A DNA stretch of 64,000 nt, from the NCBI RefSeq assembly GCF_004570875.1, contig NZ_SPQK01000004.1:186001-250000 (forward strand), read 5' to 3'. Numbering within the stretch: the stretch's first letter is position 1; every line of letters begins with the position of its first letter. The position numbers and the translations under genes were made by a program. This document shows, piece after piece, positions 22,803-39,645 of this stretch. The notes below the pieces were generated by a model. It ran no database searches. It was not told the DNA's origin and saw only the letters and a list, made by a program, of their open reading frames with translations. This DNA comes from Blastococcus sp. CT_GayMR16 (lineage in GTDB: Bacteria; Actinomycetota; Actinomycetes; Mycobacteriales; Geodermatophilaceae).

Positions 22803-22942
22803 GGCGGGCTCCTCAGGTCGTCAGTGACGACGGTGAGGGCTCGACCTCCGCCCAGCCGGTGTACCGGCTGTGCGCCGGCTGTGAACGTGGGAGCGGCAGG
22901 CTCCGGTCGAGCGAGGAGCATCTGGCAGGCTGGCGGCACTCC

Positions 22943-23019
22943 GGGGCGGTAGCTCAGCTGGTCAGAGCATGGGACTCATAATCCCTGGGTCGTGGGTTCG
23001 AGCCCCACCCGCCCCACCA
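22943..23019 (+). tRNA. tRNA-Met (anticodon CAU), integration target
   Basis: Acceptor GGGGCGG pairs with CCGCCCC, followed by encoded ACCA. The D-arm is AGCTCAGCTGGTCAGAGC, the anticodon loop is CTCATAA (anticodon CAT), and the T-arm is GTGGG-TTCGAGC-CCCAC. The closing pair of the anticodon stem is a T-T mismatch. Elongator Met is most likely; a lysidine-modified Ile2 tRNA is the alternative since both read CAT. Its 3' 42 bases lie within the 44-bp attL repeat. Confidence 0.93.
22975..23018 (+). repeat. attL, 44-bp core direct repeat
   Basis: Identical over 44 bases to 35690-35733 in the same orientation. It spans the anticodon loop to the acceptor end of tRNA-Met, the classic tyrosine-integrase crossover zone. 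Confidence 0.95.
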
Positions 23020-23086
23020 TGAATCGCCTGGTCAGCGGCTTGCTGGCCCGGCTCGGACGTTGGTAGTTCCACCGTTGCCCCACCGG

Positions 23087-23097
23087 TTGACCCAACT
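23087..23097 (+). repeat. candidate integrase arm site, left end
   Basis: TTGACCCAACT, found again in the same orientation at 35559-35569 near attR. Both copies lie inside the element within about 130 bases of the core repeat, as arm-type sites do. Confidence 0.5.
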
Positions 23098-23100
23098 AGC

Positions 23101-23109
23101 TGTGGATAA
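23101..23109 (-). promoter_or_regulatory. DnaA-box-like site
   Basis: TGTGGATAA, the exact complement of the DnaA consensus TTATCCACA, just inside attL. A single box does not make an origin; it could recruit DnaA or be chance. Confidence 0.35.
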
Positions 23110-23210
23110 CTGTGCGCAGCACAGCTCGTCCAATCCCCCGCGCTCCCTTGGCCGATCTGTATGTCCGTGTACGGTGGCCGGGCAACTGGCGCAGTACCTC
23201 GTAAACGTCA

Positions 23211-23273
23211 CCCCGCATCGAGCGGGGTCGCTAAAGGCCCACACGGAGCCCCTGCCCCGCCATCGAGCGGGCG
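23211..23273. repeat. paired hairpins upstream of the excisionase gene
   Basis: CCCCGC-ATCGA-GCGGGG (23211-23227) and the similar CCCGCC-ATCGA-GCGGG (from 23256) form two stem-loops sharing the ATCGAGCGGG core, 45 bases apart. Repeated structured sites beside attL suit operator or excisionase binding sites. The rest of 23020-23407 shows no gene. Confidence 0.45.
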
Positions 23274-23407
23274 AGCAAACCGTGGACCCGCGCTGCACGG
23301 ACTGGCGCGCAAGTCGGGCGAACTCAGATGACACCCCCTCTGGGTTCGGTCCGGCTTCTTTTCGTTCTCGGGCGGAACCCTCCACTTCTTCTGGAGGACG
23401 ACCCACC

Positions 23408-23611
23408 ATGCCCACCACCAAGCTCAGCCCATCGGACCAGATGTGGTCCGACAAGGAGGCCGCCGCCTTCCTCGGCGTCTCCTGTGTGACCGTTCGCCGG
23501 CTCCGCTACCGAGGCGTACTGCCGTACCGCAAGGTCGGCGCCGCCGTGCGCATCCCGCGTAGCGCTGTGCTCGCCTACGGGGCGCCCCAGACCAACGACG
23601 GTGCGGCATGA
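23408..23611 (+). CDS. excisionase-like HTH protein
   Basis: A 67-residue protein with a MerR/HTH_17-type winged helix: WSDKEAAAFLGVSCVTVRRLRYRGVLPYRKVGAAVRIPRSAVLAY. Such proteins next to attL act as recombination directionality factors (Xis) or as small repressors. ATG 23408 is set by GGAGGAC upstream and by where the HTH starts; the longer open frame has no similarity. Its stop overlaps the next start (ATGA). Confidence 0.85.
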   Translation: MPTTKLSPSDQMWSDKEAAAFLGVSCVTVRRLRYRGVLPYRKVGAAVRIPRSAVLAYGAPQTNDGAA

Positions 23612-24012
23612 CCCGCGCCGTGGTCATCCGGGTGCTGGATCGCCAATGGATCCCGCTTCAGGTTGCGGAGCGCGCCATGAGGCAACAGGCGGAAGAGCTG
23701 CGAGCCGAGCGAGAGACGCAGGACGTCAGTCTGCGACCGGCCGTCAACGCGGACATCGCGCAGGTTCTCGCAGCGGCTACTCAGGTTCGCGCCATGTGGA
23801 CAGCGCAGGAGCGGGAAGTTGACCTTGACGACATCGACGGTCTGTGGGACCCGATGATCGACCAGTTCGGCTCTCTACCCCCGTTGGCCGAGGTGCTGCC
23901 CGAGCAGGGCTTCCGGCTGTGCGGCACGAGAGTCGCCGTGTTCCTGCGGTTCGCGGACAGCACCTCCACTGAGGACCCCGAAGTGGTCTGGGTGGACGAG
24001 TTCTCGGCGTAG
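23608..24012 (+). CDS. hypothetical element protein
   Basis: A 134-residue protein with no recognised family. The first half is helical and charged (AERAMRQQAEELRAERETQ), the second half mixed (LWDPMIDQFGSLPPLAEVLPEQGFRL, then a strand pair RVAVFLRFAD...VVWVDEF). Translationally coupled to the excisionase gene and followed by a strong terminator, so the two form a short operon at the left end of the element. Confidence 0.65.
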   Translation: MTRAVVIRVLDRQWIPLQVAERAMRQQAEELRAERETQDVSLRPAVNADIAQVLAAATQVRAMWTAQEREVDLDDIDGLWDPMIDQFGSLPPLAEVLPEQGFRLCGTRVAVFLRFADSTSTEDPEVVWVDEFSA

Positions 24013-24037
24013 TTCAGTTCGGCTGACCCGCCCCTCT

Positions 24038-24087
24038 GTCACCCCACGCCACGCCCCTTCTCGTCTTGAGGAGTGGCGTGGGGTGAC
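24038..24087 (+). terminator. 15-bp perfect hairpin terminator
   Basis: GTCACCCCACGCCAC (24038-24052) pairs perfectly with GTGGCGTGGGGTGAC (24073-24087) across a 20-base loop, 26 bases after the previous stop codon. The region 24088-24273 that follows is AT-richer and probably holds the promoter for the next operon. Confidence 0.75.
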
Positions 24088-24273
24088 CCGCGCGGATGGG
24101 CTGTTCCGTACTGCCCGGATGCTCTTTGCCAACTCAACAGCGGTATTTCTGAACGCAAGTTCCACTTCCCGTCGACTAGCGGGCTGAAAGATTCCCACGC
24201 GGCTCCGTCCAGCCGCTGTTTAGTGGTTGTTGCGGCCGCATAAAGCCGCCACCACCGACCACCGGAGGCAATC

Positions 24274-24450
24274 TTGTTTCGACCACGAGGTAGGCCGACC
24301 ATCGCGGGCAGCGAACTGCGTGTACGGCTCACCGACAGTGACCGTCGATACGTCGAGTCGATGAGTCGCGTCATGAACGTCAGCTACTCCGAATTCTTTC
24401 GAATGGTGCTGAAGACCATCCGCGAAGAGAACAGGGAGATTGTCCGATGA
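24274..24450 (+). CDS. small ribbon-helix-helix-like protein (TTG start)
   Basis: A 58-residue protein with an RHH pattern: a beta strand GSELRVRLTDSDRRYVE, helix A, a turn MNVSYSEF, then helix B FFRMVLKTIREE. RHH proteins are dimeric DNA binders, used as plasmid copy or partition regulators and antitoxins. It starts at TTG 24274, placed by GGAGGCAATC directly upstream; no ATG/GTG gives the N-terminal basic tail FRPRGRPTIA. The stop overlaps the next start (ATGA at 24447), coupling the two genes. No toxin is recognised next to it. Confidence 0.65.
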   Translation: MFRPRGRPTIAGSELRVRLTDSDRRYVESMSRVMNVSYSEFFRMVLKTIREENREIVR

Positions 24451-24623
24451 GTTACACGCCGAACCTTCGAGCACTGGAGACGGCTATCGGCCACTTGCGC
24501 GAAGGACTGACCGCCGTCGACGACGACGTGTTGGTGCTGCGGGACCGCGAGAAGCGCCTGGCCGCCATGGAAGCCGAAGACGACGGCGACCTGGCCGCGC
24601 AGTACGGATTGGAGGCGAACTGA
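24447..24623 (+). CDS. small acidic hypothetical protein
   Basis: A 58-residue, mostly helical protein (LRALETAIGHLREGLTAVDD, then VLRDREKRLAAMEAE), possibly a short coiled coil. No family recognised. It lies between the RHH gene, which it overlaps by four bases, and the coiled-coil protein at 24625, so it is part of one operon. Confidence 0.55.
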   Translation: MSYTPNLRALETAIGHLREGLTAVDDDVLVLRDREKRLAAMEAEDDGDLAAQYGLEAN

Positions 24624-24624
24624 C

Positions 24625-25077
24625 GTGGGCGTCTTGGACGTGGGCGTGTCCCGCACCCCAGCTCAGGCGCGGGCCGCACTTCAGGAGCTGAACGCTCCGA
24701 ACCCGGTCGTGTTCGAGCAGGTCAAGAAGGAAGTGGAACGCCGCATCGGGGAGTTGACCGGCCCTGTCGTGCAGGGCGCTCAGGACAGCCTCGCCGCGAT
24801 GAACGAGGAAGCAGCCGAGCTGATCCAGGCGGCTGCCGAACACGACGAGGCGCTGGAAGCTCTGCGCCGCCGGATCAAGCGCCGCGAGATCACTGCGAAG
24901 GACGCCCGCAAGGAGCGCGACCGCATCCGTCGCGAGGAGATGAAGCTCAGCCAGCTTCTGGACTCCATCACGGCTGCGCACGAGCGCGAGGTCTATGTGC
25001 GTGACCACCCGGAGGACGTGCTCAACGTTCTCTACGAGCGGTATCCGGCACTTCCCCGGCCGCAGTTCCCGATCTGA
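24625..25077 (+). CDS. coiled-coil hypothetical protein
   Basis: A 150-residue protein with a long helical heptad region (about residues 30-125, rich in Glu, Arg and Lys) and a C-terminal YVRDHPEDVLNVLYERYPALPRPQF tail. GTG 24625 starts one base after the previous stop. Tail- and head-associated phage proteins and replication accessory proteins can look like this; no assignment is possible. A strong terminator follows. Confidence 0.6.
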   Translation: MGVLDVGVSRTPAQARAALQELNAPNPVVFEQVKKEVERRIGELTGPVVQGAQDSLAAMNEEAAELIQAAAEHDEALEALRRRIKRREITAKDARKERDRIRREEMKLSQLLDSITAAHEREVYVRDHPEDVLNVLYERYPALPRPQFPI

Positions 25078-25087
25078 CCCAGATAGT

Positions 25088-25146
25088 CGAAAGAGCCGGG
25101 GCGGCAGCAGTTGCTCGACACGGCTTCTGCTACCCCGGCTCTTTCG
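25088..25146 (+). terminator. 14-bp perfect hairpin terminator
   Basis: CGAAAGAGCCGGGG (25088-25101) pairs perfectly with CCCCGGCTCTTTCG (25133-25146). The downstream arm ends in CTTTCGG, giving a short U-containing tail. It ends the operon that begins at 24274. Confidence 0.8.
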
Positions 25147-25173
25147 GCCAACACATCCACCAAGGAGGCCCGA

Positions 25174-25518
25174 ATGGGCACTACCACACTAACCCAGGCA
25201 CGCACCCTGCGGTCATCCGGTTCCCCGCTGAGTGGTCGAGAAATTTTGATGCTCCGTGGATCACACGAGGTCGCTCTAGCGCCGAATGGAACGCCGTCGA
25301 CCGTTAGTGATCTGGTTGAGCGGTGGCTCGAAATAAGTCACGATCCGACAATGCCGATTGACGTTCTCCGCAGAGAACTGCGGCTGGCCCTGTACGGCGA
25401 GGCGCCGGACTTCCGAACTGAGTGCGCGTGGCAGCGGCTTGCCGACCAAGACCTCGCGGACGCCGTGAGCGACGACGTGGTGCGGCTCGTCCGCCGCAGC
25501 AGCCGGGGTCGTCGGTGA
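25174..25518 (+). CDS. hypothetical protein preceding the primase gene
   Basis: A 114-residue protein with no recognised family. The middle carries a helix-rich VSDLVERWLEISHDPTMPIDVLRREL segment and the C-terminus is basic (VVRLVRRSSRGRR). ATG 25174 follows AAGGAGG. Its stop overlaps the primase start (GTGA), so it may assist replication initiation. Confidence 0.6.
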   Translation: MGTTTLTQARTLRSSGSPLSGREILMLRGSHEVALAPNGTPSTVSDLVERWLEISHDPTMPIDVLRRELRLALYGEAPDFRTECAWQRLADQDLADAVSDDVVRLVRRSSRGRR

Positions 25519-27449
25519 CGACATTCCGACACAACGGAGGCGGGCTCGCCGATCCGAAGGCGGTCGCTGCCCAGGGGTGGGCCCGCAAGGGCTGGCCGGT
25601 GTTCCCGCTCGACGGCAAGCATCCCCTCGTGAAGTGGCAGGACGCGGCCACCACGGACCCGGCCCGCGTTCGAGCGCTCTGGCGGAAGCATCCCGGCGCC
25701 AACGTCGGTGTCGTGACGGGGGTTCGCTCGGGCGTGTTCGTCCTCGACGTGGACGGCGATGAAGGGCGCGCCAGTCTGGCGAGCCTGGAACGCCAGCACG
25801 GCCGAATTCCGAAGACGTACCGGGTGCGCAGTGGCCGGGGCGAGCACATCTACTTCCGCGCCGTCGAGGGGTTGCGCAACCGGGCAGCCGTGCGGACGGG
25901 GCTGGATGTTCGCGGCGAAGGCGGTCTCGTCGTCGCGGCTGGTTCGGTGCATGCCAGTGGCAGCACCTACGACGCCGTGGACGAGTGCGCGTCGGTGACC
26001 ACCGCCCCTGAGTGGCTGCTGGCTGCCCTGGCGAGCCCCAACGGCGGGGCAACGGCCACCACCCGGTCTGTTGGGGTGCCGGTGGCCGACTACGTGGCTG
26101 GTGCCGTCGCCGCCGAGGTAGAGACGCTGGCGACTACCCGAGCCGGCGGACGCAACGACCAGCTGAATCGAAGCGCCTGCGCTCTCGGGCACTACGTCGG
26201 CAGCGGCCAGGCCGACGAGGCCGAGGTCTTCGACGCGCTGTTGGGCGCCGCGCTGGACATCGACCTGCCGGAAGCGGAGGCCCGCGCCACGATCCGCAGC
26301 GGGCTGAACGCGGGCAAGGCCGAACCGGTGCGCCTCGTCAGCGCGGCGAAGAGGAAGCCAGGCGACGACGAAGACGTCGACGACGTGCTGGCCCTGGTCC
26401 GGGCCACCTTCCTCTCCAACCAGGCTGATGAGTCCGACCATCTCGACGGGCTGATGGACGACGACCAGCTCGCCAGCCTGCCGCCGGTCGAGTGGGTCAT
26501 CGACGGCTGGGTTCCCCGTGGGGCGTACTCGGTTCTGTACGGGCCGCCCGGCGCCGGGAAGACCATCGCGCTGACCGGTATGGGCCTGGCGGTGCGTCGC
26601 GGCACACGCTGGCAGAACGGCGCCCGCAACACGACGCAGACCGGCGTTCTCTTCTACCAAGGCGAGGGCTTGCGGAAGGTCAAGGACCACGTCGACGCCT
26701 GGAAGCTGCGTTACCCCAGCGACCGGCACATGGCCCCGGTCCGCTATCGGGACAAGACCTTCGACGTCACCACCGAGAGTGGCGTAGCGGCTGTCATCCG
26801 CACGGTGCAGAAGCTCGAAGCCGACACCGGCGAACCGGTGGGCATGGTGATTATCGACCCGCTGGTGGAGTTCATGACCGGCGAAGAGAACGGCGAAGGG
26901 ATGTTGCTCGCCGCCCGAGGGCTACGGGCGCTGGCACAAATTCTCGACTGCGCCGTGGTGGTCGGGCACCACACCAACGCCAACGAGAGCCGAGAGCGCG
27001 GTGCGGCCTTCCTCCGGATGGGCGCCGGACTGTTCATGCGGCTCAGTGAAACGGATGAAGGCGGCACCGGTCGCGGCCTGGTTCAGGACAAGAACCGGTT
27101 CGAGGAAAGGCAGGCCATCGAGCTGGACATGGTTCGCACGGGGCCGTCCGTCGTTCTCGAATGGCAGGGCGTCGTGAGCGCCCGAGAGTTCGCGGCCGAG
27201 CAGAAGTCGAAGGCCGTCGAGAAGGCCGCGGAGAAGAAGGTGGAGCAGAAGCGGGCGGGCAATGACCAGCTTCGGCGCAGGGTTCTCTCCTATTTGCGCG
27301 AGCACCCTCGCGCCTCGAAGAACACGGTGGCCGCTGGCATCGGCGGTAATCGGAGCGAAGTGCTCTTCATGCTCGATTTGCTGACGGAGGAGGGAGTCGT
27401 CATTCGAGAACAGGGAGCCGGAAAAGCACAGTTCCACTCGCTGGCTTGA
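25515..27449 (+). CDS. bifunctional primase-polymerase/AAA ATPase (replication initiator)
   Basis: A 644-residue replication protein. Residues about 10-175 are a Prim-Pol domain: KGWPVFPLDGKHPLVKW, the metal-binding pair Asp78-x-Asp80 in FVLDVDG, and the His of GRGEHIYFR (His111). Residues about 320-540 are a RecA/AAA_25-type ATPase with Walker A GPPGAGKT (343-350) and Walker B MVIIDPL (444-450). The C-terminal 60 residues resemble a winged helix (NTVAAGIGGNRSEVLFMLDLLTEEG). Such proteins start replication of plasmids, phage satellites and integrative elements after excision. The start GTG 25515 is coupled to the previous gene. Confidence 0.92.
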   Translation: MTTFRHNGGGLADPKAVAAQGWARKGWPVFPLDGKHPLVKWQDAATTDPARVRALWRKHPGANVGVVTGVRSGVFVLDVDGDEGRASLASLERQHGRIPKTYRVRSGRGEHIYFRAVEGLRNRAAVRTGLDVRGEGGLVVAAGSVHASGSTYDAVDECASVTTAPEWLLAALASPNGGATATTRSVGVPVADYVAGAVAAEVETLATTRAGGRNDQLNRSACALGHYVGSGQADEAEVFDALLGAALDIDLPEAEARATIRSGLNAGKAEPVRLVSAAKRKPGDDEDVDDVLALVRATFLSNQADESDHLDGLMDDDQLASLPPVEWVIDGWVPRGAYSVLYGPPGAGKTIALTGMGLAVRRGTRWQNGARNTTQTGVLFYQGEGLRKVKDHVDAWKLRYPSDRHMAPVRYRDKTFDVTTESGVAAVIRTVQKLEADTGEPVGMVIIDPLVEFMTGEENGEGMLLAARGLRALAQILDCAVVVGHHTNANESRERGAAFLRMGAGLFMRLSETDEGGTGRGLVQDKNRFEERQAIELDMVRTGPSVVLEWQGVVSAREFAAEQKSKAVEKAAEKKVEQKRAGNDQLRRRVLSYLREHPRASKNTVAAGIGGNRSEVLFMLDLLTEEGVVIREQGAGKAQFHSLA

Positions 27450-27465
27450 CGCGCAGAAGGGCAGT

Positions 27466-27570
27466 GGTACCGGTGGTACCGGACCAGTACCGGTACCGGT
27501 GCGCGGTGGGCGGTACTGGTACCAGTTCCGGCCCCCCTACGGGGTGGCCGGGAACCGGTGACCAGCTACC
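27466..27570. repeat. GTACC-rich palindromic repeat cluster, candidate origin
   Basis: Six GTAC palindromes in about 60 bases, arranged as overlapping GGTACCGG and CCGGTACC units with a diverged right part (GGTACTGGTACCAGTTCC, then GGAACCGGTGACC). It lies directly after the primase-polymerase gene and before the next RBS, in the element's longest noncoding gap beside a replication gene. Iteron-like binding sites for the initiator are the likely role. Confidence 0.5.
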
Positions 27571-27626
27571 ACCACTCCCACTAGGCGGCCTGGAACCACT
27601 CAATGCAAGAGAAGGAGGAACACAGG

Positions 27627-28334
27627 ATGAGCAAGAAGAAGAGGCGGGTTCGAACTGACGACCCGGTGAAGTGCATCGCGCACTCGTCGCGGACGGGCAA
27701 TCCATGCAAGAACCCACCCATGCAAGGCGGGAACGTCTGCCGGATGCACGGTGGGGCCGCCGCCCAGGTGCGTCGTCGGGCGGCTGAGCGCATCGCCCTG
27801 GCCAGTGATCCAGCCGCCGCGAAGCTGATCGCCTTCATGAATGACGAGAGCGTTCCGCACAACGTTCGACTCGCGGCCGCGAAGGATCTTCTCGACCGAG
27901 CGCAGGTCTCCGGCAAGACGACCGTTGAGATCGAGGTGCCCGCGTGGCAGCAGATCCTCGAAGGGGTGGTTGCAAGCGTCGAGCCCGGCGTGCAGATGCG
28001 CCCGTTCGCGGAAGCGCAGGGCGCCCCGGACCCGCTGGTGGTCGCGGCGGAACGTGTCGAAGCGGAGCGCGAACTGGCCCGCTACCAGGCCGAGCCCCAC
28101 GACGCCGACTGGTCGGACGCCTTCGCCTACGGCTCCGAACCGCCCCGGCCCGCCCCGGTGCAGGAGCCGGCGACGCCTATGAGGAACGGAGCCGACCGAC
28201 CGCCGCCCGAGCACCCGCTGCCGGAACGGCGCCGCATCGAGCCGGACGACCCTGACTACTGGGCCGTGCCCCGGACCTACCGGCCCACCCCACGACAGCC
28301 CAGCAAGGGCCGCATCGCCGGGCGCCGCCGCTGA
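27627..28334 (+). CDS. HGG-motif zinc-binding phage/element protein
   Basis: A 235-residue protein. Its N-terminus is a small zinc-knuckle-like region, VKCIAHSSRTGNPCKNP then GGNVCRMHGGAAAQVRRRAAER: three Cys and a His followed by the HGG motif, common in phage and satellite proteins and in some terminase small subunits. A helical middle (SVPHNVRLAAAKDLLDRAQ) resembles the small-terminase helical bundle, and the last 80 residues are Pro-rich and probably disordered. ATG 27627 is favoured by AAGGAGGAAC upstream; ATG 27603 is too close upstream of this RBS to use it. If it is a small terminase it could redirect packaging, but no large subunit is present. Confidence 0.65.
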   Translation: MSKKKRRVRTDDPVKCIAHSSRTGNPCKNPPMQGGNVCRMHGGAAAQVRRRAAERIALASDPAAAKLIAFMNDESVPHNVRLAAAKDLLDRAQVSGKTTVEIEVPAWQQILEGVVASVEPGVQMRPFAEAQGAPDPLVVAAERVEAERELARYQAEPHDADWSDAFAYGSEPPRPAPVQEPATPMRNGADRPPPEHPLPERRRIEPDDPDYWAVPRTYRPTPRQPSKGRIAGRRR

Positions 28335-28580
28335 CGCCGACGCCAGCGCCCTGGGCGCCGACGTGCGCCGATGGACTGGTGCCGGTCGGGTGCTGGCACA
28401 CCCTCCCCAAGGACGCCGCCTGGCGGGCCGCCAGCGGTCGCCGGCGACGCCGAACGGGACGTATCGGCGTCGCGGCCGGGTCCACAGAGAGTGGAGGTCA
28501 GAAAGTCCTGAACTTTCGGGGCCGGGTTCTGTGAGCTGAGTGGGTCCGCACCACACGAGTCACCGCCCAGGAGGCACCCC
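28335..28580. other. noncoding gap within the element
   Basis: About 245 bases without a supported gene. Near 28500 a short dyad (GAAAGT-cctga-ACTTTC) lies ahead of the next RBS (AGGAGGCACCCC), probably part of the promoter or leader of the gene at 28581. Otherwise nothing is seen. Confidence 0.3.
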
Positions 28581-29051
28581 GTGACCAGCACCAAGACCAC
28601 CACCACCCCGGCCACCGTCGACACCGAGGAGTCGGCCACTCGCGTCGGCCCCATGCACCAGGCGTTCGCCGACTTCCTGAACGGTCAGCACGGCGCAAAC
28701 GGCATCACCGCCGAGCAGGTGTTCCTCGTGACCAGCAAGCGCAAGGCGTTCCGCAGCACCGACACGTACCGGGTCGAGGTGAAGGCCGCACAGGAGCAGG
28801 CCAAGGCCGCCGACCTGGCCGCCAAGGAGCAGCGGGCGCAGGAGCGGGCCGCCGACCGCCAGCGCAAGGCGGAGGAGAAGGCGGCAGCCGCTGCGGCGGC
28901 CAAGGCCAAGGCCGATGCGGAGAAGGTGGCTGCCAAGGCTCCCGAGCCCGCCCCGGTCGAGAAGAAGGCCCCGGCTGCCAAGGCTCCGGCCGCGAAGCCC
29001 GCGCCGAAGAAGGCCGCCGCCGCCAAGGCGAACCCTGCCAAGACCGCCTGA
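28581..29051 (+). CDS. basic protein with histone-like Lys/Ala/Pro tail
   Basis: A 156-residue protein starting at GTG 28581. Residues 1-65 hold a compact region (GPMHQAFADFLNGQHGANGITAEQVFLVTSKRKAFR), residues 70-115 form a charged helix with Ala/Lys/Glu heptads, and the rest is a KAP/KKA-rich tail like those of H1-like and mycobacterial HupB proteins. Non-specific DNA binding is a reasonable inference. It follows a strong RBS and is followed by a gene of unknown function 32 bases downstream. Confidence 0.6.
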   Translation: MTSTKTTTTPATVDTEESATRVGPMHQAFADFLNGQHGANGITAEQVFLVTSKRKAFRSTDTYRVEVKAAQEQAKAADLAAKEQRAQERAADRQRKAEEKAAAAAAAKAKADAEKVAAKAPEPAPVEKKAPAAKAPAAKPAPKKAAAAKANPAKTA

Positions 29052-29082
29052 CAGACCCGGCTACGAGCCCCAGGAGGCCACC

Positions 29083-29355
29083 ATGATCGAGATCGTTGGG
29101 CTGTACAGCCTCACGGAGACGCCAACCGGCAAGCCGGTGGAGGAGTTGTTGGCCGCGTTCGCTGCGGCTGGCATCTCTGCCACGCAAGAGGGCGCCGGAA
29201 CGAGCGTCGGCAGTGGCGAGCGGGACGTGGAGGTGTGGGCCGACTGCACCGAAGCCCGCGCGTGGGAGGTCATCGAGCCGCTGCGGTACGCCAAGGCATG
29301 GGACATCGAAGGCGAGATGCCCGAGGGCTACCAGCCCGGTGACAAGCGTGTGTGA
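29083..29355 (+). CDS. hypothetical element protein
   Basis: A 90-residue acidic protein (starts MIEIVGLYSLTETPTG, ends GEMPEGYQPGDKRV), unrecognised. Alternating strands and helices (VEELLAAFAAAGIS, then DVEVWADCTEARAWEVIEPL) suggest a small ferredoxin-like alpha/beta fold. AGGAGG precedes ATG 29083. It overlaps the next gene by eight bases. Confidence 0.6.
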   Translation: MIEIVGLYSLTETPTGKPVEELLAAFAAAGISATQEGAGTSVGSGERDVEVWADCTEARAWEVIEPLRYAKAWDIEGEMPEGYQPGDKRV

Positions 29356-29728
29356 GCCCACGCCACCCGGCCCACCCGGTGCCGACGTGCCCGCCACCAT
29401 CCCGACCCAGACCGACCAGAACGGCCCGGCCGGTGCCCAGGAGGGCACCGGCCTTCGGGCTGACGCACAGCGCCGACCGTGGCGCGCCCTGCTGGCCTGC
29501 GGTCACCGCGTCGAAGTGGTGCAGGTGTCCCCCGGCCCCGCCGAGCCACCCACGACCGTCGAGTGCCCGCGCTGCGGTGCGCGGCAGGCGGTCGACGTCT
29601 ACCCGCTGACCGCACTCAGCGACCCGGAGAACGTGGGTTGGCTGCCAGTGGAGGACGGCGAGGACGACGCCTCCACGCAGTGGCACCCGTGCGAGGTCGA
29701 GCTGTGGGAGGGGGAGTACGACCGATGA
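29348..29728 (+). CDS. zinc-ribbon-like hypothetical protein
   Basis: A 126-residue protein with a Cys pair motif ACGHRVEVV...VECPRCGARQAVDV (C-x-H and C-x2-C), likely a zinc ribbon that stabilises the fold or binds nucleic acid. The N-terminal 40 residues are Pro/Thr-rich. GTG 29348 starts within the previous gene; the stop overlaps the resolvase start (ATGA). Confidence 0.6.
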   Translation: MCEPTPPGPPGADVPATIPTQTDQNGPAGAQEGTGLRADAQRRPWRALLACGHRVEVVQVSPGPAEPPTTVECPRCGARQAVDVYPLTALSDPENVGWLPVEDGEDDASTQWHPCEVELWEGEYDR

Positions 29729-30399
29729 ACGTCGTCGCGTACCTGCGGGTCAGCACCGACGAACAGGTGCAGAGCGGGCTCGGTCTGGAAGCGCAGCGGG
29801 CGGCCGTCGAGCAGGAGGCCGCTCGGCGCGGCTGGTCGGTCGTGTGGGAGGTCGACGAAGGGGTCAGCGGCAAGCTGCGCAACCGCCCCGCACTCGACCG
29901 CGCCCTGGGATGGCTGAGAGCCGGCGAGGCGCAGGCGCTCGTCGTGGCGAAGATGGACCGCCTCGGCCGCAGCGTCATCCAAGCCAGCGACGTGCTCGAG
30001 ACGGCCCGCCGCCAGAAGTGGGACCTCATCGTCCTCGACCTGGGCATGGACCTGACCACCCCGCACGGCAAGGCGATGGCGCAGATGCTCGCGGTCTTCG
30101 CCGAGCTGGAACGCGAGATGATCAGCGCCCGGACGAAGGCCGCTCTCGGAGCTGCCAAGGCGCGAGGCACCCGCCTGGGTCGCCCACGCCAAATCGACCC
30201 GGCGCTGCTGACTCGCATCGTCGCCATGCACGCGGCCGGGTCGAGCCACCGCTGCATCGCCGCCGCTCTCACGGCTGAGCGCGTCCCCACGCCCACCGGC
30301 CGCGCGCGGTGGAACCCCGGCAGCATCGGCGGCTATCTCACCAGCGCCGCCCTGGACCCCGTCGAACCCACCCTTTCGGCATCGGAGGCCGTCGCATGA
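29725..30399 (+). CDS. small serine recombinase (resolvase/invertase family)
   Basis: A 224-residue serine recombinase. The catalytic Ser10 lies in VVAYLRVSTDEQ; the conserved core continues with KMDRLGRSVIQASDVLE, GKAMAQMLAVFAELEREMISARTKAAL and a C-terminal helix-turn-helix GSSHRCIAAALTAERVPTPTG. The size and lack of a long zinc domain place it with small resolvases/invertases, not large phage integrases. ATG 29725 is coupled to the previous gene, and its own stop overlaps the tyrosine integrase start. It may resolve cointegrates or dimers of the element. Confidence 0.95.
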   Translation: MNVVAYLRVSTDEQVQSGLGLEAQRAAVEQEAARRGWSVVWEVDEGVSGKLRNRPALDRALGWLRAGEAQALVVAKMDRLGRSVIQASDVLETARRQKWDLIVLDLGMDLTTPHGKAMAQMLAVFAELEREMISARTKAALGAAKARGTRLGRPRQIDPALLTRIVAMHAAGSSHRCIAAALTAERVPTPTGRARWNPGSIGGYLTSAALDPVEPTLSASEAVA

Positions 30400-31622
30400 G
30401 CACCCGCATCCCCACCCGCACGCCCGGCGTCTACAAGATCCACCGGGGCAAGGGCACTGTCTACGTGGCCCGCTGGCGCGAGGTTGACCCGACGACCGGC
30501 AAGGCCCGCGTCCGCGACAAGACCTTCCTGAGCGAGACCGCCGCCCGGCAGTACCGGGCGAGAGTGGAGCACACCCAGGCGACCGGGACCTACGTCGACC
30601 CGCAGGCCGGGAAGGTCACCTTCGCGGACGTCGCGGACCAGTGGCTCGCCACCGCATCGACCAGCGACATTCGACCGCAGACGCTAGAGAAGTACCGACG
30701 GAACCTCGCGAACTACGCGCTACCCGCGTTCGGCCGTCGCCGGCTCGACAGCATCACGAGCCGGGACGTCGAGCTGTGGCTTCGCGGACTGCGCACCACC
30801 CACGGCCAACCGCTGATGCCTGCGACCGTTCGACGGGCGTACTTTCCGCTGCAAGCGACCTTCCGCTACGCCCGGCAGCACAACGTCATCGCGATCAACC
30901 CGTGCGAGGGCCAGACCGTGAAGGTGCCCAAGGCGTTGCCCACCGGCCGGGAAGAGGTCGAAGGGCACTTCCTCAGCCTGACGCAAGTCGCCGCCCTGGC
31001 GAGCAAGTGCGCCGAGACAGATCCGGTCGACGGGCTCCTCGTCCGATTCGCTGGGGGCGTAGGGCTGCGGGCGAGCGAAATCGCTGGGCTGCGGGTGCGG
31101 GACCTGCGACTGGCTCGCCGAGAGGTGCACGTCGAGCGAACTGCGAAGAACGTGCCCGGTACCGGCTGGGTCTTCGAGGAACCGAAGTCTAAGAAGAGCC
31201 GGCGACGGGTGCCCATCCTCGATGACGAGCTGCTGCACGACCTGGGTCTCTACCTGGCAGGCCACCCACGGCGCGACGAACTGGATGCGCCCTTCTGGCC
31301 GGGGCGGGGCCGCACCGGGCCGGACTATGGCCAGACGGGTGCCGACCACCTGTGGAATCAGCAGGCGTTCTACCGCAACGTCTACCGCCCGGCCGTGGCC
31401 GCCGTGGGGTTGCCCGCCGACCCGCACACCGGGGTCCGCTTCCACGATCTGCGACACACCTGCGGCAGCCAGTGGCTCGCGGACGGACACGAGATGTTCT
31501 CGGTGTCTCGCTGGCTCGGGCACAGCAGCGTCGCCTTCACCGCCGACGTCTACGGCCACGTCGCCAAGGAGCCGGACTACACCGCCGCCATCGAACGTAC
31601 GCGGCTAGCGCGAGGACTGTAG
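30396..31622 (+). CDS. int: tyrosine-type site-specific integrase
   Basis: A 408-residue integrase. The N-terminal arm-binding region (about 1-70, YVARWREVDPTTGKARVRDKTF) is followed by a SAM-like core-binding domain (TFADVADQWLATAS to NPCEGQ). The catalytic set is complete: Arg225 in GLRASEIAGL, Lys264 in EEPKSKKSRR, His350 and Arg353 in FHDLRHTCG, His376 in LGHSS and Tyr386 in DVYGHV. It should catalyse integration between attP and the tRNA-Met 3' end, with the excisionase-like protein setting direction. ATG 30396 overlaps the resolvase stop. Confidence 0.96.
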   Translation: MSTRIPTRTPGVYKIHRGKGTVYVARWREVDPTTGKARVRDKTFLSETAARQYRARVEHTQATGTYVDPQAGKVTFADVADQWLATASTSDIRPQTLEKYRRNLANYALPAFGRRRLDSITSRDVELWLRGLRTTHGQPLMPATVRRAYFPLQATFRYARQHNVIAINPCEGQTVKVPKALPTGREEVEGHFLSLTQVAALASKCAETDPVDGLLVRFAGGVGLRASEIAGLRVRDLRLARREVHVERTAKNVPGTGWVFEEPKSKKSRRRVPILDDELLHDLGLYLAGHPRRDELDAPFWPGRGRTGPDYGQTGADHLWNQQAFYRNVYRPAVAAVGLPADPHTGVRFHDLRHTCGSQWLADGHEMFSVSRWLGHSSVAFTADVYGHVAKEPDYTAAIERTRLARGL

Positions 31623-31665
31623 CTGCACGCGACCCCTGCTACGTGGATGCGTAGTCACGTCGTGT

Positions 31666-31694
31666 TTGACAGCACGTAGTACGTAGTGCATTCT
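31666..31694 (+). promoter_or_regulatory. candidate promoter with ACGTAGT repeats
   Basis: TTGACA (31666-31671) is a perfect -35; 17 bases on, CATTCT is a weak -10. Between them lie two copies of ACGTAGT (CACGTAGTACGTAGTG), with further GCGTAGTCACGT just upstream, so a repressor or activator site overlaps the promoter. It would drive the gene at 31731. Confidence 0.45.
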
Positions 31695-31730
31695 CGACCC
31701 GTCGCAACACTTCGACGAGTGGAGACGCCA

Positions 31731-32324
31731 GTGAGCGAGGCCATCGGTAGCGGAACGGGAGCTGGACTGCTCGCTTTCCTGGACTGGACCATCGAGAAGA
31801 ACGAGCTGAACAAGGCGACGGCGTCAGCCCTGAAGACAGGCGTCAGGAACGTGCTGTCCGTAGAGGACGATGCCGACGGGGTTGACCTCCGCTCCCTCGA
31901 TGAAGGAGCGATGGAGAACTTCCTTCTGCGCTTCACGAACAAGACGCGCGGCCAGTTCAAGGACAAGAGCCAGGAGGTCTACCGCCAGCGATTCCGCCAG
32001 TCGGTGGCCATGTACTTGACCTGGCTGGACGGCGGAGATTGGCGACCCGCGCGTCTGCGGCCAACCGCAAGCGGAAACGGGAACGGCACGGCGCAGCGGC
32101 GCCCCACGAAACCCTCAGCGACGCCTCCGGTGGCGCCCGCCGTAGAGCCGGCTGAAGCCCCGCGCTCGACGACGCCCATCGTGGGCCTGATCGAGTACCC
32201 CTTCCCGCTACGGCCTGGGCTACGCGCACGGCTGATGCTCCCCGAAGACCTCTCTGCGGCAGAAGCGGGTCGTATCGCCGCCTTCGTTCGGACGCTGGCA
32301 TTCGAGGACACAACCGAGGATTGA
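31731..32324 (+). CDS. core-binding-domain-like protein of unknown function
   Basis: A 197-residue protein. Residues about 10-100 look like a SAM-like core-binding domain of tyrosine recombinases without the catalytic part (LDWTIEKNELNKATASALKTGVRNVL, QEVYRQRFRQSVAMYLTWL). A linker rich in Pro/Ala follows, then a C-terminal module IEYPFPLRPGLRARLMLPEDLSAAEAGRIAAFVRTLAFE, a strand-strand-helix motif shared by many small regulatory proteins. GTG 31731 has GGAG upstream; GTG 31686 is alternative. It is encoded opposite the methyltransferase-nuclease gene, which suggests, but does not show, a joint role. Confidence 0.6.
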   Translation: MSEAIGSGTGAGLLAFLDWTIEKNELNKATASALKTGVRNVLSVEDDADGVDLRSLDEGAMENFLLRFTNKTRGQFKDKSQEVYRQRFRQSVAMYLTWLDGGDWRPARLRPTASGNGNGTAQRRPTKPSATPPVAPAVEPAEAPRSTTPIVGLIEYPFPLRPGLRARLMLPEDLSAAEAGRIAAFVRTLAFEDTTED

Positions 32325-32351
32325 TGTGCTGAGGGGGCGCGGGGTTTCGAG

Positions 32352-32552
32352 ATGAGCCATTGGCTGCTGCTAGTTCCTGCAGTGCTCCCCGTATGCGCCC
32401 TCATCCGCTGGCTCGCCGTATTGCGCTTCGGCCGTTGGCTGGTCCGAGAGACCGGTGACCCCGCCGCGCTTGGCCATGCCGCAGCCCTCGCGGACGCCAT
32501 GCGGGGTCGTAGGTCCTTGCCTCCCACGGATACGTCCACGGAGCGCAGTTAG
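32352..32552 (+). CDS. small possible membrane protein
   Basis: A 66-residue frame with an N-terminal hydrophobic helix (WLLLVPAVLPVCALIRWLAVL) and a polar tail. It starts 28 bases after the previous stop, with a GGGGGCGCGGGG tract upstream at poor spacing. No family. It may be a real small membrane protein or a chance frame. Confidence 0.35.
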   Translation: MSHWLLLVPAVLPVCALIRWLAVLRFGRWLVRETGDPAALGHAAALADAMRGRRSLPPTDTSTERS

Positions 32553-32588
32553 ACCAGCGGAGTCAATGCCCTGGATTCGGCTCCGTCC

Positions 32589-34154
32589 TCAGGCGTCGAA
32601 CAGCGCTCCCTGATGTTCGGAGATGTGCTTCCGCTGAGCCTGGATGTACGGCAGCATCGTCGGCGGCATCATCGGGCGCTTACCCGCGAGAAGCTCGTCG
32701 ACGGTGATGATCTGAATCCTCGGAAACGCCTGCGGGTAGTTCGGGTGGTGGTACACACCGGCATGATTTGCCTCATCGACCATGCCGCGCGTGGGCGGTG
32801 CATTGGTGATGAGAACGCCCATCTCGGCCTTCTGCGTGGTCACCGTGCCGCCTAGATCTCGAACCATCGACGGGTTGAGCTGCTTGCCGCCCTTGACGGA
32901 GATCAGCACCCTGCCGAAGTTGGCGCGCCCGAGAGGGAAGCGCGCCACTCCGTCGATGCCCTTGTCTCCGACCTGCTTCTGATTCGGCTGACCGCTGATT
33001 AGAGAGACGGCCCAACGCTCGAAGTCGAACGGAGAATGGGAGAACAGCGCGAGCGCAGCGGCCTTGTCTCGCGGGATACCGAGAACGTCGTATGTCTGCT
33101 TGATCGACGGGGTGTAAGTGTGCTCTAGGCGTTTTTCGATGAGATCCACGGCCAGATACGTAATGTCGACGCCGATCCATCGGCGCTTCAGCTTGATAGC
33201 CGCGTCGATCGTCGTACCGCACCCGCAAAACGGGTCGAGAACGACGTCACCTTCGTTGCTGCTTGCAGCAAGGATGCGCTCCAGCAGCGCGACCGGCTTC
33301 TGCGTGGGGTACCCGAGACGCTCCTTGGCCACAGGGTTCAGCATGTTGATGTCCGTCCAGACATCATCGATCTGCGAGGTACCGGGGCTCTCGGCTAGGT
33401 ATTGCTTGTAGCTGTACCCGGCACCAGCCCTCTTGGGCTCGATCAGTCGGTTGTCGTCCCGCAATCGCTCTAGGGTCTCTTGGCTGTAGGTCTTGAGGCT
33501 CGTCTTTCGATATGGGCCTCGCCCGTCGTTGTCATCCCACTTGAAGCGAGCCAGGTACTCGTTCGAGTAGGCAGTCGACGGCGAATGCCAAGTCCAGGTC
33601 TCGCCTTTGCTGTAGAAGAGGATGACATCGTGGCTCTTAGGGAGCTGCTGTGCCCGCGATTTGCTGCTGCCCTTGAAGGGTGTGCGACGCCACGTAATCT
33701 CGTTCCGAAAGCTAGTTGCGCCGAAGATCGCGTCGAGCAAGATCTTCAAGTAGTGGCTCATCGTCGGGTCGCAGTGCAGGTAGAGCGACCCGGTGTCCTT
33801 GAGGACGCGATGCAGCTCCACCAAGCGCGGGGCCATGTTGACGAGGTAGGCCATTGCATCGTTCTCGCCGAGCAATGTGCGGAAGGCTGTCAGCGCGTCT
33901 GCGACGGGCTGCGGAAGTTCGCCCGTCACGTAGTCCGAATACTGCTGATCCGTTACTGGTGTCCATCGCCAGGTGTCATCGAACGCCTGAATCTGTGCGC
34001 GCTCATCGTTGGCCGCCGTCTCATGGCGCGCGAAGATGACGTTGAAGCTGCGATTCGAGTTGAACGGCGGGTCCAGGTAGACCAAGTCGACGCTCTCCGC
34101 AGGGATGCGCTGCCGCAGAACTTCGAGGTTGTCCCCGTAGAAGAGTCGGTCCAC
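32589..34154 (-). CDS. DNA methyltransferase fused to an Mrr-like nuclease domain
   Basis: A 521-residue two-domain protein. Residues 1-350 are an amino-group DNA methyltransferase of the beta class: catalytic DPPF at 28-31 precedes the SAM-binding DPFCGCGT at 307-314, separated by a TRD (about 150-270). It would make N6-methyladenine or N4-methylcytosine. Residues 375-490 are a restriction-endonuclease-like domain: FERWAVSLI, DKGIDG (397-402), and ISVKGGK (418-424), where Ser419 replaces the usual Glu/Gln of the E/Q-x-K site. Such methyltransferase-nuclease fusions could form one-gene restriction-modification or be orphan methylases. It is convergent with the small gene at 32352. Confidence 0.88.
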   Translation of the reverse strand: MDRLFYGDNLEVLRQRIPAESVDLVYLDPPFNSNRSFNVIFARHETAANDERAQIQAFDDTWRWTPVTDQQYSDYVTGELPQPVADALTAFRTLLGENDAMAYLVNMAPRLVELHRVLKDTGSLYLHCDPTMSHYLKILLDAIFGATSFRNEITWRRTPFKGSSKSRAQQLPKSHDVILFYSKGETWTWHSPSTAYSNEYLARFKWDDNDGRGPYRKTSLKTYSQETLERLRDDNRLIEPKRAGAGYSYKQYLAESPGTSQIDDVWTDINMLNPVAKERLGYPTQKPVALLERILAASSNEGDVVLDPFCGCGTTIDAAIKLKRRWIGVDITYLAVDLIEKRLEHTYTPSIKQTYDVLGIPRDKAAALALFSHSPFDFERWAVSLISGQPNQKQVGDKGIDGVARFPLGRANFGRVLISVKGGKQLNPSMVRDLGGTVTTQKAEMGVLITNAPPTRGMVDEANHAGVYHHPNYPQAFPRIQIITVDELLAGKRPMMPPTMLPYIQAQRKHISEHQGALFDA

Positions 34155-34214
34155 GTGTCGAAGCTACCGAGTGCGTGAGACAGATTCTGCACAGACACCC
34201 GGCTGGGCTCTGCA

Positions 34215-34236
34215 CCGTGGTCAGTACCGACCACGG
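34215..34236. promoter_or_regulatory. dyad in the divergent promoter region
   Basis: CCGTGGTC (34215-34222) and GACCACGG (34229-34236) form an 8-bp perfect inverted repeat with a 6-base centre, 14 bases before the start of the WhiB operon and 60 bases from the methyltransferase start. It suits a dimeric repressor. Confidence 0.45.
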
Positions 34237-34250
34237 AAGGGGGTTGGCGC

Positions 34251-34535
34251 ATGCGACGGCGCCGGGCAACTACGCACCTGATCAGGTCGCAGCTCACCGA
34301 CGAGAACGGGCAGCCGGTCACCTTCGCCACTCCTGGCGCGCCCACCTTGGACGAACGACGCCGCTACGCGCTGGCGGTGCAGCGGGCGACCACCCCGACA
34401 CCGCTGACCCCCGAACAGCAAGCGGAGGTCGACGCGATCCATCGGCGCAACCTCGAACTCTTCCCGCATCGCTACAACGCCGATGACTATCGACCCCGAC
34501 CCCGCCGCGAGCCGTTCCCTCACCTGCTCTCGTGA
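34251..34535 (+). CDS. hypothetical protein upstream of WhiB
   Basis: A 94-residue basic protein (MRRRRATTHLIRSQL...) with a helix LTPEQQAEVDAIHRRNLELFPHRYN. No family recognised; its size and location suggest a regulator. The stop overlaps the WhiB start (GTGA at 34532), so they are coupled. Confidence 0.5.
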   Translation: MRRRRATTHLIRSQLTDENGQPVTFATPGAPTLDERRRYALAVQRATTPTPLTPEQQAEVDAIHRRNLELFPHRYNADDYRPRPRREPFPHLLS

Positions 34536-34897
34536 AGGCTGTCACCAAAGAGCTGCAACGCCTGCGTCGGCGACCGCAGCCGTGGATTCCTCGGATGCCC
34601 TGGTCCGCCCGCGCCGCCTGTAAGGGCCACGACCCCGAGGACTGGATGGACGGCCGACCCGGTCTGCCGACCGCTGCCGCTAGGGCCGTCTGTGCGGCCT
34701 GCCCCGTCCGCGCAGCCTGCCTCGCCCACGCCCTGGTCTACGACGAGCCCTGGGGCATGTGGGGCGGGCTAAGCACTCGGGAGCGCATCGCCGGCCGACT
34801 GGGGCTGCCAGCGCAGGACCACGGGGGCGAGCGCCCGTACATCGGAGCGAACGGCCCCCGGAAGACCAAGCCGCCGCCCACTCAGCGGGTCAGCTAG
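34532..34897 (+). CDS. WhiB-family iron-sulfur regulator
   Basis: A 121-residue Wbl protein. The four cluster cysteines are Cys30 (RAACKGHDPEDW) and those of VCAACPVRAACLAH (C-x2-C-x5-C); after them comes the Wbl G-x-W-G-G motif (PWGMWGGLSTRER) and a basic C-terminal region. Wbl proteins bind sigma-factor region 4 and DNA, sensing oxygen or NO through the 4Fe-4S cluster. Phage and plasmid Wbl proteins can repress host whiB2-type genes. On the element this is the probable host-interaction regulator. Confidence 0.93.
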   Translation: MKAVTKELQRLRRRPQPWIPRMPWSARAACKGHDPEDWMDGRPGLPTAAARAVCAACPVRAACLAHALVYDEPWGMWGGLSTRERIAGRLGLPAQDHGGERPYIGANGPRKTKPPPTQRVS

Positions 34898-34912
34898 GTC
34901 GACACAAGCCAG

Positions 34913-34953
34913 GTGCCCCTGGGGAGAGACCTGGCGGCTCATCCCAGGGGCAC
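34913..34953 (+). terminator. 11-bp perfect hairpin terminator
   Basis: GTGCCCCTGGG (34913-34923) and CCCAGGGGCAC (34943-34953) pair perfectly, 15 bases after the WhiB stop. It also rules out the GTG at 34913 as a start of the next gene. Confidence 0.75.
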
Positions 34954-34978
34954 CCTTCTATCTGCGAAGCTACTCGGC

Positions 34979-35530
34979 GTGACGGAGGCACCGACGGTCG
35001 CGAAGAACCTGTGCGGGTCGCCGGCGACCGCCGAGGAAGCGGTTGAACAGGCACCGCGTGAATCCGGTCTCTACGCCTGGTGGGCTCCCCCTGGGCTGCT
35101 ACCGCGAGTGTCCGGCCCCGCACATCCGAGCGCCGACGGACTGGAACTGCTCTACATCGGCTTGGCTCAGAACTTGCGCGCCAGGGTGGTCGGCAACCAC
35201 TTCCGAGGTCCAACCGGCTCGTCCACGTTGCGCCGCGCCTTGGTGGCGCTGCTGATGACCTCCGAGAGCTACACCACCCGATGGACCCGGACCCGTGTCG
35301 TCCCGGTCGACGCGGACGAGGCGCGGTTGTCCGAATGGATGCGCGAGCACCTGCGGGTGACGTGGGCTCCGCATCCGGAGCCACAGACGGTGGAGAGCGC
35401 GGTTATCAAGGCACTCGGGCCGCCACTCAACCAGCGGGACAACAAGGCGCATCCGCTGTACGAGACGATCAGCGCAGCGCGTGCCGCCTATCGGGCGTCA
35501 GCCGGTCCTCGTCCGCAACCCACGGAGTAG
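34979..35530 (+). CDS. GIY-YIG nuclease family protein
   Basis: A 183-residue nuclease-fold protein. The motif set is complete: G30-L-Y (SGLYAWW), Y59-I-G (LLYIGLAQNL), Arg67/Arg69 (LRARVVG), the metal-binding Glu139 (TVESAVIKAL) and Asn151 (PLNQRDN). The catalytic residues are all kept, so DNA cleavage is expected. It is the last gene before attR, downstream of a terminator, in a usual cargo position. GTG 34979 is chosen since the upstream part of the frame lies inside the WhiB terminator. Target unknown; repair, homing or anti-phage roles are open. Confidence 0.83.
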   Translation: MTEAPTVAKNLCGSPATAEEAVEQAPRESGLYAWWAPPGLLPRVSGPAHPSADGLELLYIGLAQNLRARVVGNHFRGPTGSSTLRRALVALLMTSESYTTRWTRTRVVPVDADEARLSEWMREHLRVTWAPHPEPQTVESAVIKALGPPLNQRDNKAHPLYETISAARAAYRASAGPRPQPTE

Positions 35531-35558
35531 GTGTCCGCCACCGCTTCTAACCCAACGT

Positions 35559-35569
35559 TTGACCCAACT
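35559..35569 (+). repeat. candidate integrase arm site, right end
   Basis: Second TTGACCCAACT, same orientation as at 23087-23097; a further related AACCCAAC lies just upstream (35549-35556). Confidence 0.5.
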
Positions 35570-35689
35570 GAGCCCCCGCGATCAGGGGTGATCAGGGGCT
35601 CCCTGGTGAGCATCGAGCCGATGCCGTTTCCGCAGGTGAAGGGCCGAATCCCCAGGCAAGCGGCGTGCGCCGCCAGCCGCCTGAGCGCC

Positions 35690-35733
35690 CTCATAATCCC
35701 TGGGTCGTGGGTTCGAGCCCCACCCGCCCCACC
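35690..35733 (+). repeat. attR, 44-bp core direct repeat (tRNA-Met 3' remnant)
   Basis: Exact copy of 22975-23018. The sequence upstream has no tRNA 5' half, so it is not a functional tRNA gene. Confidence 0.95.
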
Positions 35734-35903
35734 GCGCATGTTGTTGTGTCGGCTGTGGGGCGAACCGTGGCCCATCGCGGCGGACCTACCGCGGGAGGTG
35801 TCGACGGCGCTAACGTGCGCCACCTCTTCGGCGCATGTCACGGGGGACCCATGTCTCGTTCGTGCCGCACATCGGACGTCGAACGCGCGGGGACGGTGCC
35901 GCC

Positions 35904-38999: not shown

Positions 39000-39061
39000 A
39001 TGTCGGTGGCTCCCCCTAGCGTGGTCCTCCAGTAAACAGCCCACGAGCAGGGGACATCGTC

Positions 39062-39619: not shown

Positions 39620-39645
39620 CGCCGTGGCGTGACCTCAGCCCCCGC

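Follow-up and report, generated by a model that had tools for sequence, protein, structure and literature searches.

A 12.7-kb element with a small-terminase homologue, probably a phage satellite, at a Blastococcus tRNA-Met gene

The element and its core genes

The window examined here, a stretch of 64,000 nucleotides from Blastococcus sp. CT_GayMR16 (contig NZ_SPQK01000004.1, positions 186,001 to 250,000), carries an inserted element of 12,715 bp at a tRNA-Met gene. The element encodes an integrase, an excisionase-like protein, a primase-polymerase (Prim-Pol) and a homologue of the small terminase subunit (TerS) of phages, and it is probably a phage satellite resembling the phage-inducible chromosomal islands (PICIs), whose size range of ~12-15 kb includes it. 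The host genome comprises 4.52 Mb in 47 contigs, the window lying within contig 42.

An earlier reading of the letters alone (the sequence-only reading) had proposed a perfect 44-bp repeat bounding a 12.7-kb unit, a tRNA-Met target, an integrase, an excisionase-like protein and a Prim-Pol, and all of these were confirmed. The two copies of the repeat, attL and attR, are 12,715 bp apart, and the next longest direct repeats within 20000-40000 are imperfect and 24-31 bp long. The left copy forms the 3' portion of a tRNA-Met(CAT) gene that remains intact, and this tRNA, queried against its own genome, returned two matches, itself and the right repeat copy. The G+C content of the 1-kb bins of the element (23001-36000) is 0.60-0.74, that of the two bins before it 0.74 and that of the three after it 0.72-0.73. 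The principal features are given below with lengths in amino acids (aa); identities are to L088, a sister element at a tRNA-Leu gene.

22943-23019, + strand: tRNA-Met(CAT) gene, the integration target, its 3' part being attL (ARAGORN)
22975-23018, + strand: attL, 44 bp (perfect direct repeat)
23408-23611, + strand: excisionase / AlpA-like helix-turn-helix protein (xis), 67 aa (TIGR01764 7.8e-9, above cut-off; PF12728, HTH_17, 2.7e-10; L088 homologue 60% identical)
25515-27449 (start 25515 or 25599), + strand: primase-polymerase fused to an AAA/RepA-like helicase domain (PF09250 2.7e-44, PF13481 1.7e-29)
27627-28334, + strand: TerS homologue, 235 aa, with an HGGxSTG zinc-finger-like N-terminus followed by helices (PDB profile search; NF041373 HGG_STG; Foldseek)
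29725-30399, + strand: small serine recombinase (resolvase/invertase type), 224 aa (PF00239 2.7e-39; phrog_125 DNA invertase 2.6e-42; 88% identity)
30396-31622, + strand: tyrosine integrase, 408 aa (PF00589 2.5e-14; 70% identity)
35690-35733, + strand: attR, 44 bp (perfect direct repeat)

The Prim-Pol retains intact the motifs DVDG, GRGEHIYF and GPPGAGKT, which we take to be primase-polymerase and helicase motifs, the integrase has what we assume to be its catalytic motifs, and the element enzyme frames tested have no internal stops. The 17 proposed element proteins were scanned singly against Pfam and PHROGs, and no convincing match to capsid, portal, large terminase (TerL), FtsK or relaxase was found among them, the only matches bearing such names being weak (portal at E 0.07 for a 150-aa protein, terminase small subunit at E 0.004 for the excisionase helix-turn-helix). 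The absence of FtsK, TraB and relaxase noted in the sequence-only reading agrees with these scans. That reading had also allowed for capsid genes under diverged sequence; a profile of the capsid proteins found in related elements, described below, finds nothing in the window element at E<=10, and neither this profile nor the Pfam and PHROGs scans revealed phage structural or lysis genes.

A small-terminase homologue

The element had been described as having neither capsid nor terminase genes. The capsid part of this claim stands but the terminase part does not, because the protein at 27627-28334 is recognisable as a TerS homologue, and the lack of a terminase can no longer serve as a reason for the satellite reading. 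Its initial family matches were weak, to phrog_3678 (unknown function, 2.1e-12) and to terminase-small-subunit PHROGs (0.05-0.06), and its HGGxSTG domain matches NF041373 above cut-off. When a profile of 14 homologues, including the window protein and one protein from a prophage-like locus (L098), was searched against the PDB, two sequences were returned at E<=0.1 and both are small terminases (7joq at 1.6e-7 and 6w7t at 3.8e-6), with the helical region aligned. A further profile of 41 rows ranked the same two structures at the top (4.4e-6 and 1.9e-5, the next match being at 0.018), and 7joq was also the top match of the window protein as a single query (6.9e-5). For a second structure model (mean pLDDT 82.5), the top five rows in Foldseek are chains of 7joq, the NV1 small terminase, and of 6w7t, that of PaP3.

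The element-type TerS profile also matches phage proteins. In Microbacterium phage Carostasia the homologue and TerL are the overlapping genes 1 and 2, the homologue of the prophage-like locus L101 abuts TerL (phrog_38, 1.9e-89), and a single gene separates the two in L098. The homologues of Mycobacterium phage Onyinye and Microbacterium phage Cece carry the annotation 'terminase small subunit', with no TerL within the first 8 kb of Cece. Of 27 IMG/VR loci with a TerS homologue, 2 are of the element type and 25 are not; a phrog_38 match is present in 10 of these 25. In 7 it lies on the TerS strand no more than about 1.5 kb downstream, and in one about 6 kb downstream.

Some results count against the assignment and, with it, against a satellite. 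The Foldseek E values of the second model (0.16-0.55) are not significant alone, and the first structure model (pLDDT 67.9) had no PDB match at E<=0.001, its best E being 4.8; the viral structures that it matched are phage proteins that are unnamed, uncharacterized or, in one case, called 'WRC protein'. A simple rule of TerS beside TerL is broken in SM23 and Montesquieu, where TerL lies 1.7 kb and 2.3 kb off, respectively. The LuckyBarnes homologue is 1.4 kb from TerL, with the TerS label on another gene, and the Onyinye homologue is about 8 kb from TerL. Among the 25 IMG/VR records, 15 have no phrog_38 match, many of them being fragments, and 2 have weak matches on the opposite strand.

Related elements, with and without a capsid gene

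TerS homologues were found at E<=1e-6 in 18/298 genomes of the order and, with a profile and a stricter cut-off, in 7/396 genomes of the phylum, the host's own included in both counts. The order TerS, serine recombinase, tyrosine integrase, on one strand, recurs in 9 of the 18 loci of a first set and in 22 of the 31 of a second, in hosts that include Mycobacterium, Mycolicibacterium, Gordonia, Hoyosella, Lolliginicoccus, Nocardia and a Pseudonocardia metagenome-assembled genome. These 31 of 49 loci, less two duplicates (L110=L090, L122=L095) and with the window added, give 30 distinct elements, a set from which two IMG/VR loci of the same core order (L137 and L138) are excluded. Repeats linked to a tRNA bound 18 of the 30, the window's included. 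The other 12 (L091, L093, L095, L108, L109, L111, L115, L116, L121, L124, L127 and L135) are without such a repeat, and contig ends cut at least L108, L109, L111 and L127. L099, with a 27-bp repeat 6.7 kb away and no core, was excluded, and for L125, which has two candidate repeats (10,199 and 13,609 bp), the first was used. The L088 repeat is 25 bp and lies inside the tRNA, not at its 3' end, and those of L119, L128 and L133 are 29-30 bp.

The att copies of the 18 bounded elements are spaced 10,199-15,331 bp apart (mean 12,638, standard deviation 1,229), a constancy that is biased, and to that extent tells against our interpretation, in that the loci span at most about 20 kb and larger elements could not show. 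The placing of the integrase 4 kb from attR with cargo between, to which the sequence-only reading had drawn attention, holds for the window element (4.07 kb from the integrase stop) and is the rule in the family, the integrase lying 1.0-5.5 kb from the nearer element end in 18/18. The target genes are tRNA-Leu, Gly, Met, Arg and Lys. That the same compact set recurs at similar size at all of these argues against a decayed prophage that has retained integration, replication and TerS, as do the intact motifs and frames of the enzymes tested and an att that is perfect over 44 bp. Such a remnant, which we regard as quite unlikely, would be in keeping with the absence of all phage structural genes and with the phage relatives that both TerS and Prim-Pol have.

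The sister element L088 has xis, WhiB and a number of small genes in common with the window element, along with TerS (66-72% identity), the recombinase (88%) and the integrase (70%). It differs in its replication protein and in a ThsB-like TIR gene close to its right end (L088:17416-18099; PADLOC 1.4e-87), no ThsA match being present among the few L088 proteins scanned. When proteins were clustered by single-linkage BLASTP, the replication-protein cluster was found in 17/18 elements; L119 has just a 96-aa frame and L113 an unassigned 463-aa frame in that place. The serine recombinase of L096 is split over two frames. Prim-Pol was tried as a marker of these elements and failed, being found in 4/112 genomes of the host's family at E<=1e-20 (own included) and in 1/394 of the class at E<=1e-40 (the host's own); one further scan with it, of genome contigs, gave no relative. 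IMG/VR, scanned with TerS and with the integrase as single proteins, gave no relative.

A major capsid protein of 369-411 aa is encoded in 14/18 att-bounded elements, the window element not among them. The two tested match the major head protein family PHROG 3990 (7e-98 and 5e-108), and identity is 44% to the capsid protein of Gordonia phage Sadboi and 42% to that of Onyinye. Members of the capsid profile occur in 34/49 TerS loci, a count that takes in duplicates and cut contigs. The gene is usually at the left end and is opposite to int in 12/14; in L112 and L123 it is co-directional with int, and in L112 the whole block has been turned round together with its neighbours. Inversion of the capsid block by the serine recombinase was considered and is rejected for now, no shared flanking inverted repeat having been found. 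The capsid-less elements (the window's, L088, L092 and L096) have a mean length of 12.4 kb and the capsid-bearing ones a mean of 12.7 kb.

These capsid genes bear on a further alternative, in which the element is a relative of the actinomycete integrative and conjugative elements (AICEs) or of the integrative mobilisable elements (IMEs), is transferred by mating with another element's help and carries its TerS-like gene incidentally. AICEs also have a tRNA target, Int/Xis and a Prim-Pol replicase, 12.7 kb would fit, and related Prim-Pol proteins are found at low identity on actinobacterial plasmids (38 records). However, neither FtsK/TraB nor relaxase was found in the element proteins, the 25 Pfam families hit by 107 other open reading frames (ORFs) of the 18 elements include neither, and a phage major capsid protein would be needless for conjugation, so we consider this alternative unlikely; the presence of TerS in all 18 reflects their selection. 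The 107 are drawn from 110 further ORFs, three doubtful window frames being excluded, and their PHROGs result rests on 25 of the 55 families matched, their Pfam result on all 25. The sequence-only reading had offered a choice between a phage satellite and a mobilisable replicating island. The satellite half is favoured by the TerS homologue and by relatives that share the core, many of them with a capsid gene, and nothing supports the mobilisable half, no relaxase, FtsK or TraB having been found.

One pair of loci suggests that elements of this kind move. In this pair (L130 in M. asiaticum and L131 in M. elephantis, with L190 and L191 as further loci of the two), a TerS- and capsid-bearing element is identical at 12,969/12,979 positions (99.92%). 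The identity begins inside the att derived from tRNA-Arg and ends at the second att copy, the flanks are without a match, and the M. elephantis copy sits behind another stretch of ~9 kb that follows the same tRNA-Arg. A recent site-specific transfer would fit this pattern; a mix-up of contigs would not. Because the gene order is different, the tyrosine integrase being at the far end, and a serine recombinase was not found, the pair is a cousin of the window element and supports the kind of element but not the exact type, a limit that also weighs against our interpretation.

Likely mode of spread, cargo and known systems

The boundaries, the gene set, the intact frames and motifs, the TerS homology and the family membership can all be read from the DNA itself. 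The window element is probably an integrated phage satellite of PICI type: it would excise, replicate and divert helper packaging through its own TerS. Spread in the particles of a helper virus is the most likely route because genes for insertion, copying and DNA selection are present but no shell gene was found; the helper, the induction and the packaging we infer. Infection by a tailed phage or induction of a prophage would be the trigger, upon which Int and Xis would excise the element, its own Prim-Pol-helicase would replicate it and the serine recombinase would resolve multimers. The element TerS, paired with the helper TerL, would select element DNA for helper heads, and the particle would bring it to a new cell, where Int would insert it at tRNA-Met.

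Several further observations speak against this reading. No Stl-type master repressor was recognised among the element proteins; the TIGR01764/HTH_17 protein at 23408-23611 could be an AlpA-like regulator. With two TerL models no resident helper prophage is seen in the host genome, PF03354 (TerL_ATPase) giving no match and phrog_38 one weak, partial match (1.6e-4), and phrog_38 matches at E<=1e-10 in 1/18 relatives searched, with an internal stop. The comparison of related genomes at tRNA-Met, a check proposed in the sequence-only reading, found no empty site with the same flanks among the genomes compared, and these do not demonstrate presence and absence at the exact element junction. Two of them (G033 and G034) have right-flank homologues preceded by different upstream sequence, the left-flank contig of G033 stopping inside the tRNA, and three others (G025, G028 and G030) have the tRNA and no second 44-bp copy, with flanks that are not the same as the window's.

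The tRNA-Met gene is a hot spot, several congeners having second att copies 4.7 to 101.8 kb off with other contents. At these insertions detectable relatives were found only for the integrase of the window element, at about 26-37% identity. The second copies (loci L049-L054) are 14.4 kb off in G031, 10.9 kb in G026, 101.8 kb in G024, and 4.7 and 12.2 kb in G029. Directly after attR in the window (35771-39000) is a gene of 1,054 aa, presumably patatin-like, whose G033/G034 homologues have other upstream sequence and thus mark a variable edge.

The remaining genes of the element, including its cargo, are as follows.

23608-24012, + strand: 134-aa protein (no match in Pfam, PHROGs or PADLOC)
24447-24623, + strand: 58-aa protein, kept in L088 (shared cluster)
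24625-25077, + strand: 150-aa charged, probably helical protein, kept in L088 (32% identity; family matches weak only)
25174-25518, + strand: 114-aa protein, kept in L088 (41% identity)
28581-29051, + strand: 156-aa protein with a Lys/Ala-rich tail, kept in L088 (80% identity over 95 aa; PHROG of unknown function 2e-6)
29083-29355, + strand: 90-aa protein (no match in Pfam, PHROGs or PADLOC)
29387-29728, + strand: zinc-ribbon-like small protein (PF09723 5e-4, below cut-off)
31731-32324 (longer frame from 31686), + strand: 197-aa cargo protein (phrog_2602 5e-5, unknown function)
32589-34154, - strand: N6/N4 DNA methyltransferase fused to an Mrr-like / inactive-restriction-endonuclease-like domain, cargo (PF01555 3.8e-47, PF22722 4e-10, PF04471 1e-6; PADLOC methyltransferase models)
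34251-34535, + strand: 94-aa protein, kept in L088 (71% identity over 75 aa)
34532-34897, + strand: WhiB-family regulator, kept in L088 (PF02467 4.5e-19; 67% identity)
34913-35530, + strand: GIY-YIG domain protein, cargo (PF20815 1.8e-23)

A 23-bp inverted repeat with a 13-bp loop lies at 25088-25146, between two of these genes. The second domain of the methyltransferase protein may bind DNA without cutting it, because the inactive restriction-endonuclease family matches it better than Mrr_cat does. Protection of the host or the element from phages is a plausible role for the cargo between int and attR (methyltransferase-Mrr and GIY-YIG). This cargo, the ThsB-like TIR of L088 and the GmrSD, Mrr, TIR and C5-methylase families among the other elements' ORFs would also suit a host-protecting defence island that moves passively, its TerS and recombinases being anti-phage decoys or serving stability only. 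We judge such an island very unlikely, as a dedicated replicase, an excisionase and two recombinases are unneeded for that role, and cargo of this sort does not discriminate, satellites commonly carrying it.

Beyond the satellite reading itself, it is possible, if rather doubtful, that the elements with an HGGxSTG-TerS, a small serine recombinase and a tyrosine integrase are an actinobacterial satellite lineage in their own right, whose members acquire and lose one capsid gene while their length stays roughly constant. Capsid-bearing members would make small heads by their own major capsid protein with the portal, scaffold, TerL and tails of the helper, and capsid-less members would use helper heads and carry defence cargo in the freed space. 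One-gene capsid swapping, if true, would differ from what is known of the scaffold-based Staphylococcus aureus pathogenicity islands (SaPIs) and of the fully equipped capsid-forming PICIs (cf-PICIs).

Among known systems, pSAM2-like AICEs have a tRNA site, Int/Xis, a replication gene, a similar size and an FtsK-like TraB. The window element is like them in the first four and differs in having TerS and no FtsK-like TraB that could be found; Pfam and PHROGs scans revealed neither the FtsK/TraB or type IV transfer gene that defines AICEs and other integrative and conjugative elements nor the relaxase that defines IMEs; some mobilisable elements without a relaxase carry an oriT alone.

PICIs are defined by an integrase, a replication module, TerS in some, a master regulator (Stl/Rpr or AlpA), att sites never used by prophages, and induction, interference and packaging that depend on a phage (PMC6092414). 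The window element is like the PICIs, such as the SaPIs, with their own TerS in its integrase, excisionase, primase/replicase module and TerS homologue, and like PICIs in being att-bounded and of 12-15 kb, with accessory genes at one end and no structural or lysis genes found (PMC6092414). It differs in its lack of an identified master repressor, the small serine recombinase between TerS and the integrase, the HGGxSTG N-terminus of its TerS, an integrase that is not beside att, relatives with a capsid gene, and in being known from sequence alone. The cf-PICIs and the Streptomyces satellites MulchRoom and MiniFlayer have complete gene sets for heads and packaging, TerL and portal among them, and the latter two are without a primase (deCarvalho et al. 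2023, PMC10690885). They are alike as phage satellites, if our reading holds, and relatives of the window element also have a major capsid protein, but the window element has a Prim-Pol and no head gene was found in it; of the capsid, portal, protease and TerL that define cf-PICIs, none was found.

The class had been called poorly described, which is partly so. Actinobacterial prophage-like elements under 15 kb are suspected satellites, and experiments on actinobacterial satellites are described as lagging (PMC10023795; PMC11389934 is a review). Candidate PICIs of Mycobacterium have been proposed from an integrase and a major capsid protein, with induction and transduction still to be shown (Abad et al. 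2023, PMC10654092). The window element is like these candidates in its tRNA integration and tyrosine integrase, and some of them have replication genes; it differs in being capsid-less and outside Mycobacteriaceae, to whose order its host also belongs. The capsid-bearing mycobacterial relatives fit that definition, the match being by definition only, and because it has no capsid gene the window element would be missed. In the literature covered, with subscription papers mostly outside scope, we found no description of the TerS-recombinase-integrase core or of a capsid-less member, and novelty is unproven to that extent. What is new here is the capsid-less form outside Mycobacteriaceae and the shared core, the capsid-bearing mycobacterial candidates being already known. 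Finding candidates by their capsid would overlook capsid-less satellites, and the core offers a searchable marker that unites both forms. If our reading is true, defence genes are passed around by these islands in soil actinobacteria and in mycobacteria, and their family provides a natural comparison between stealing the heads of a helper and making one's own.

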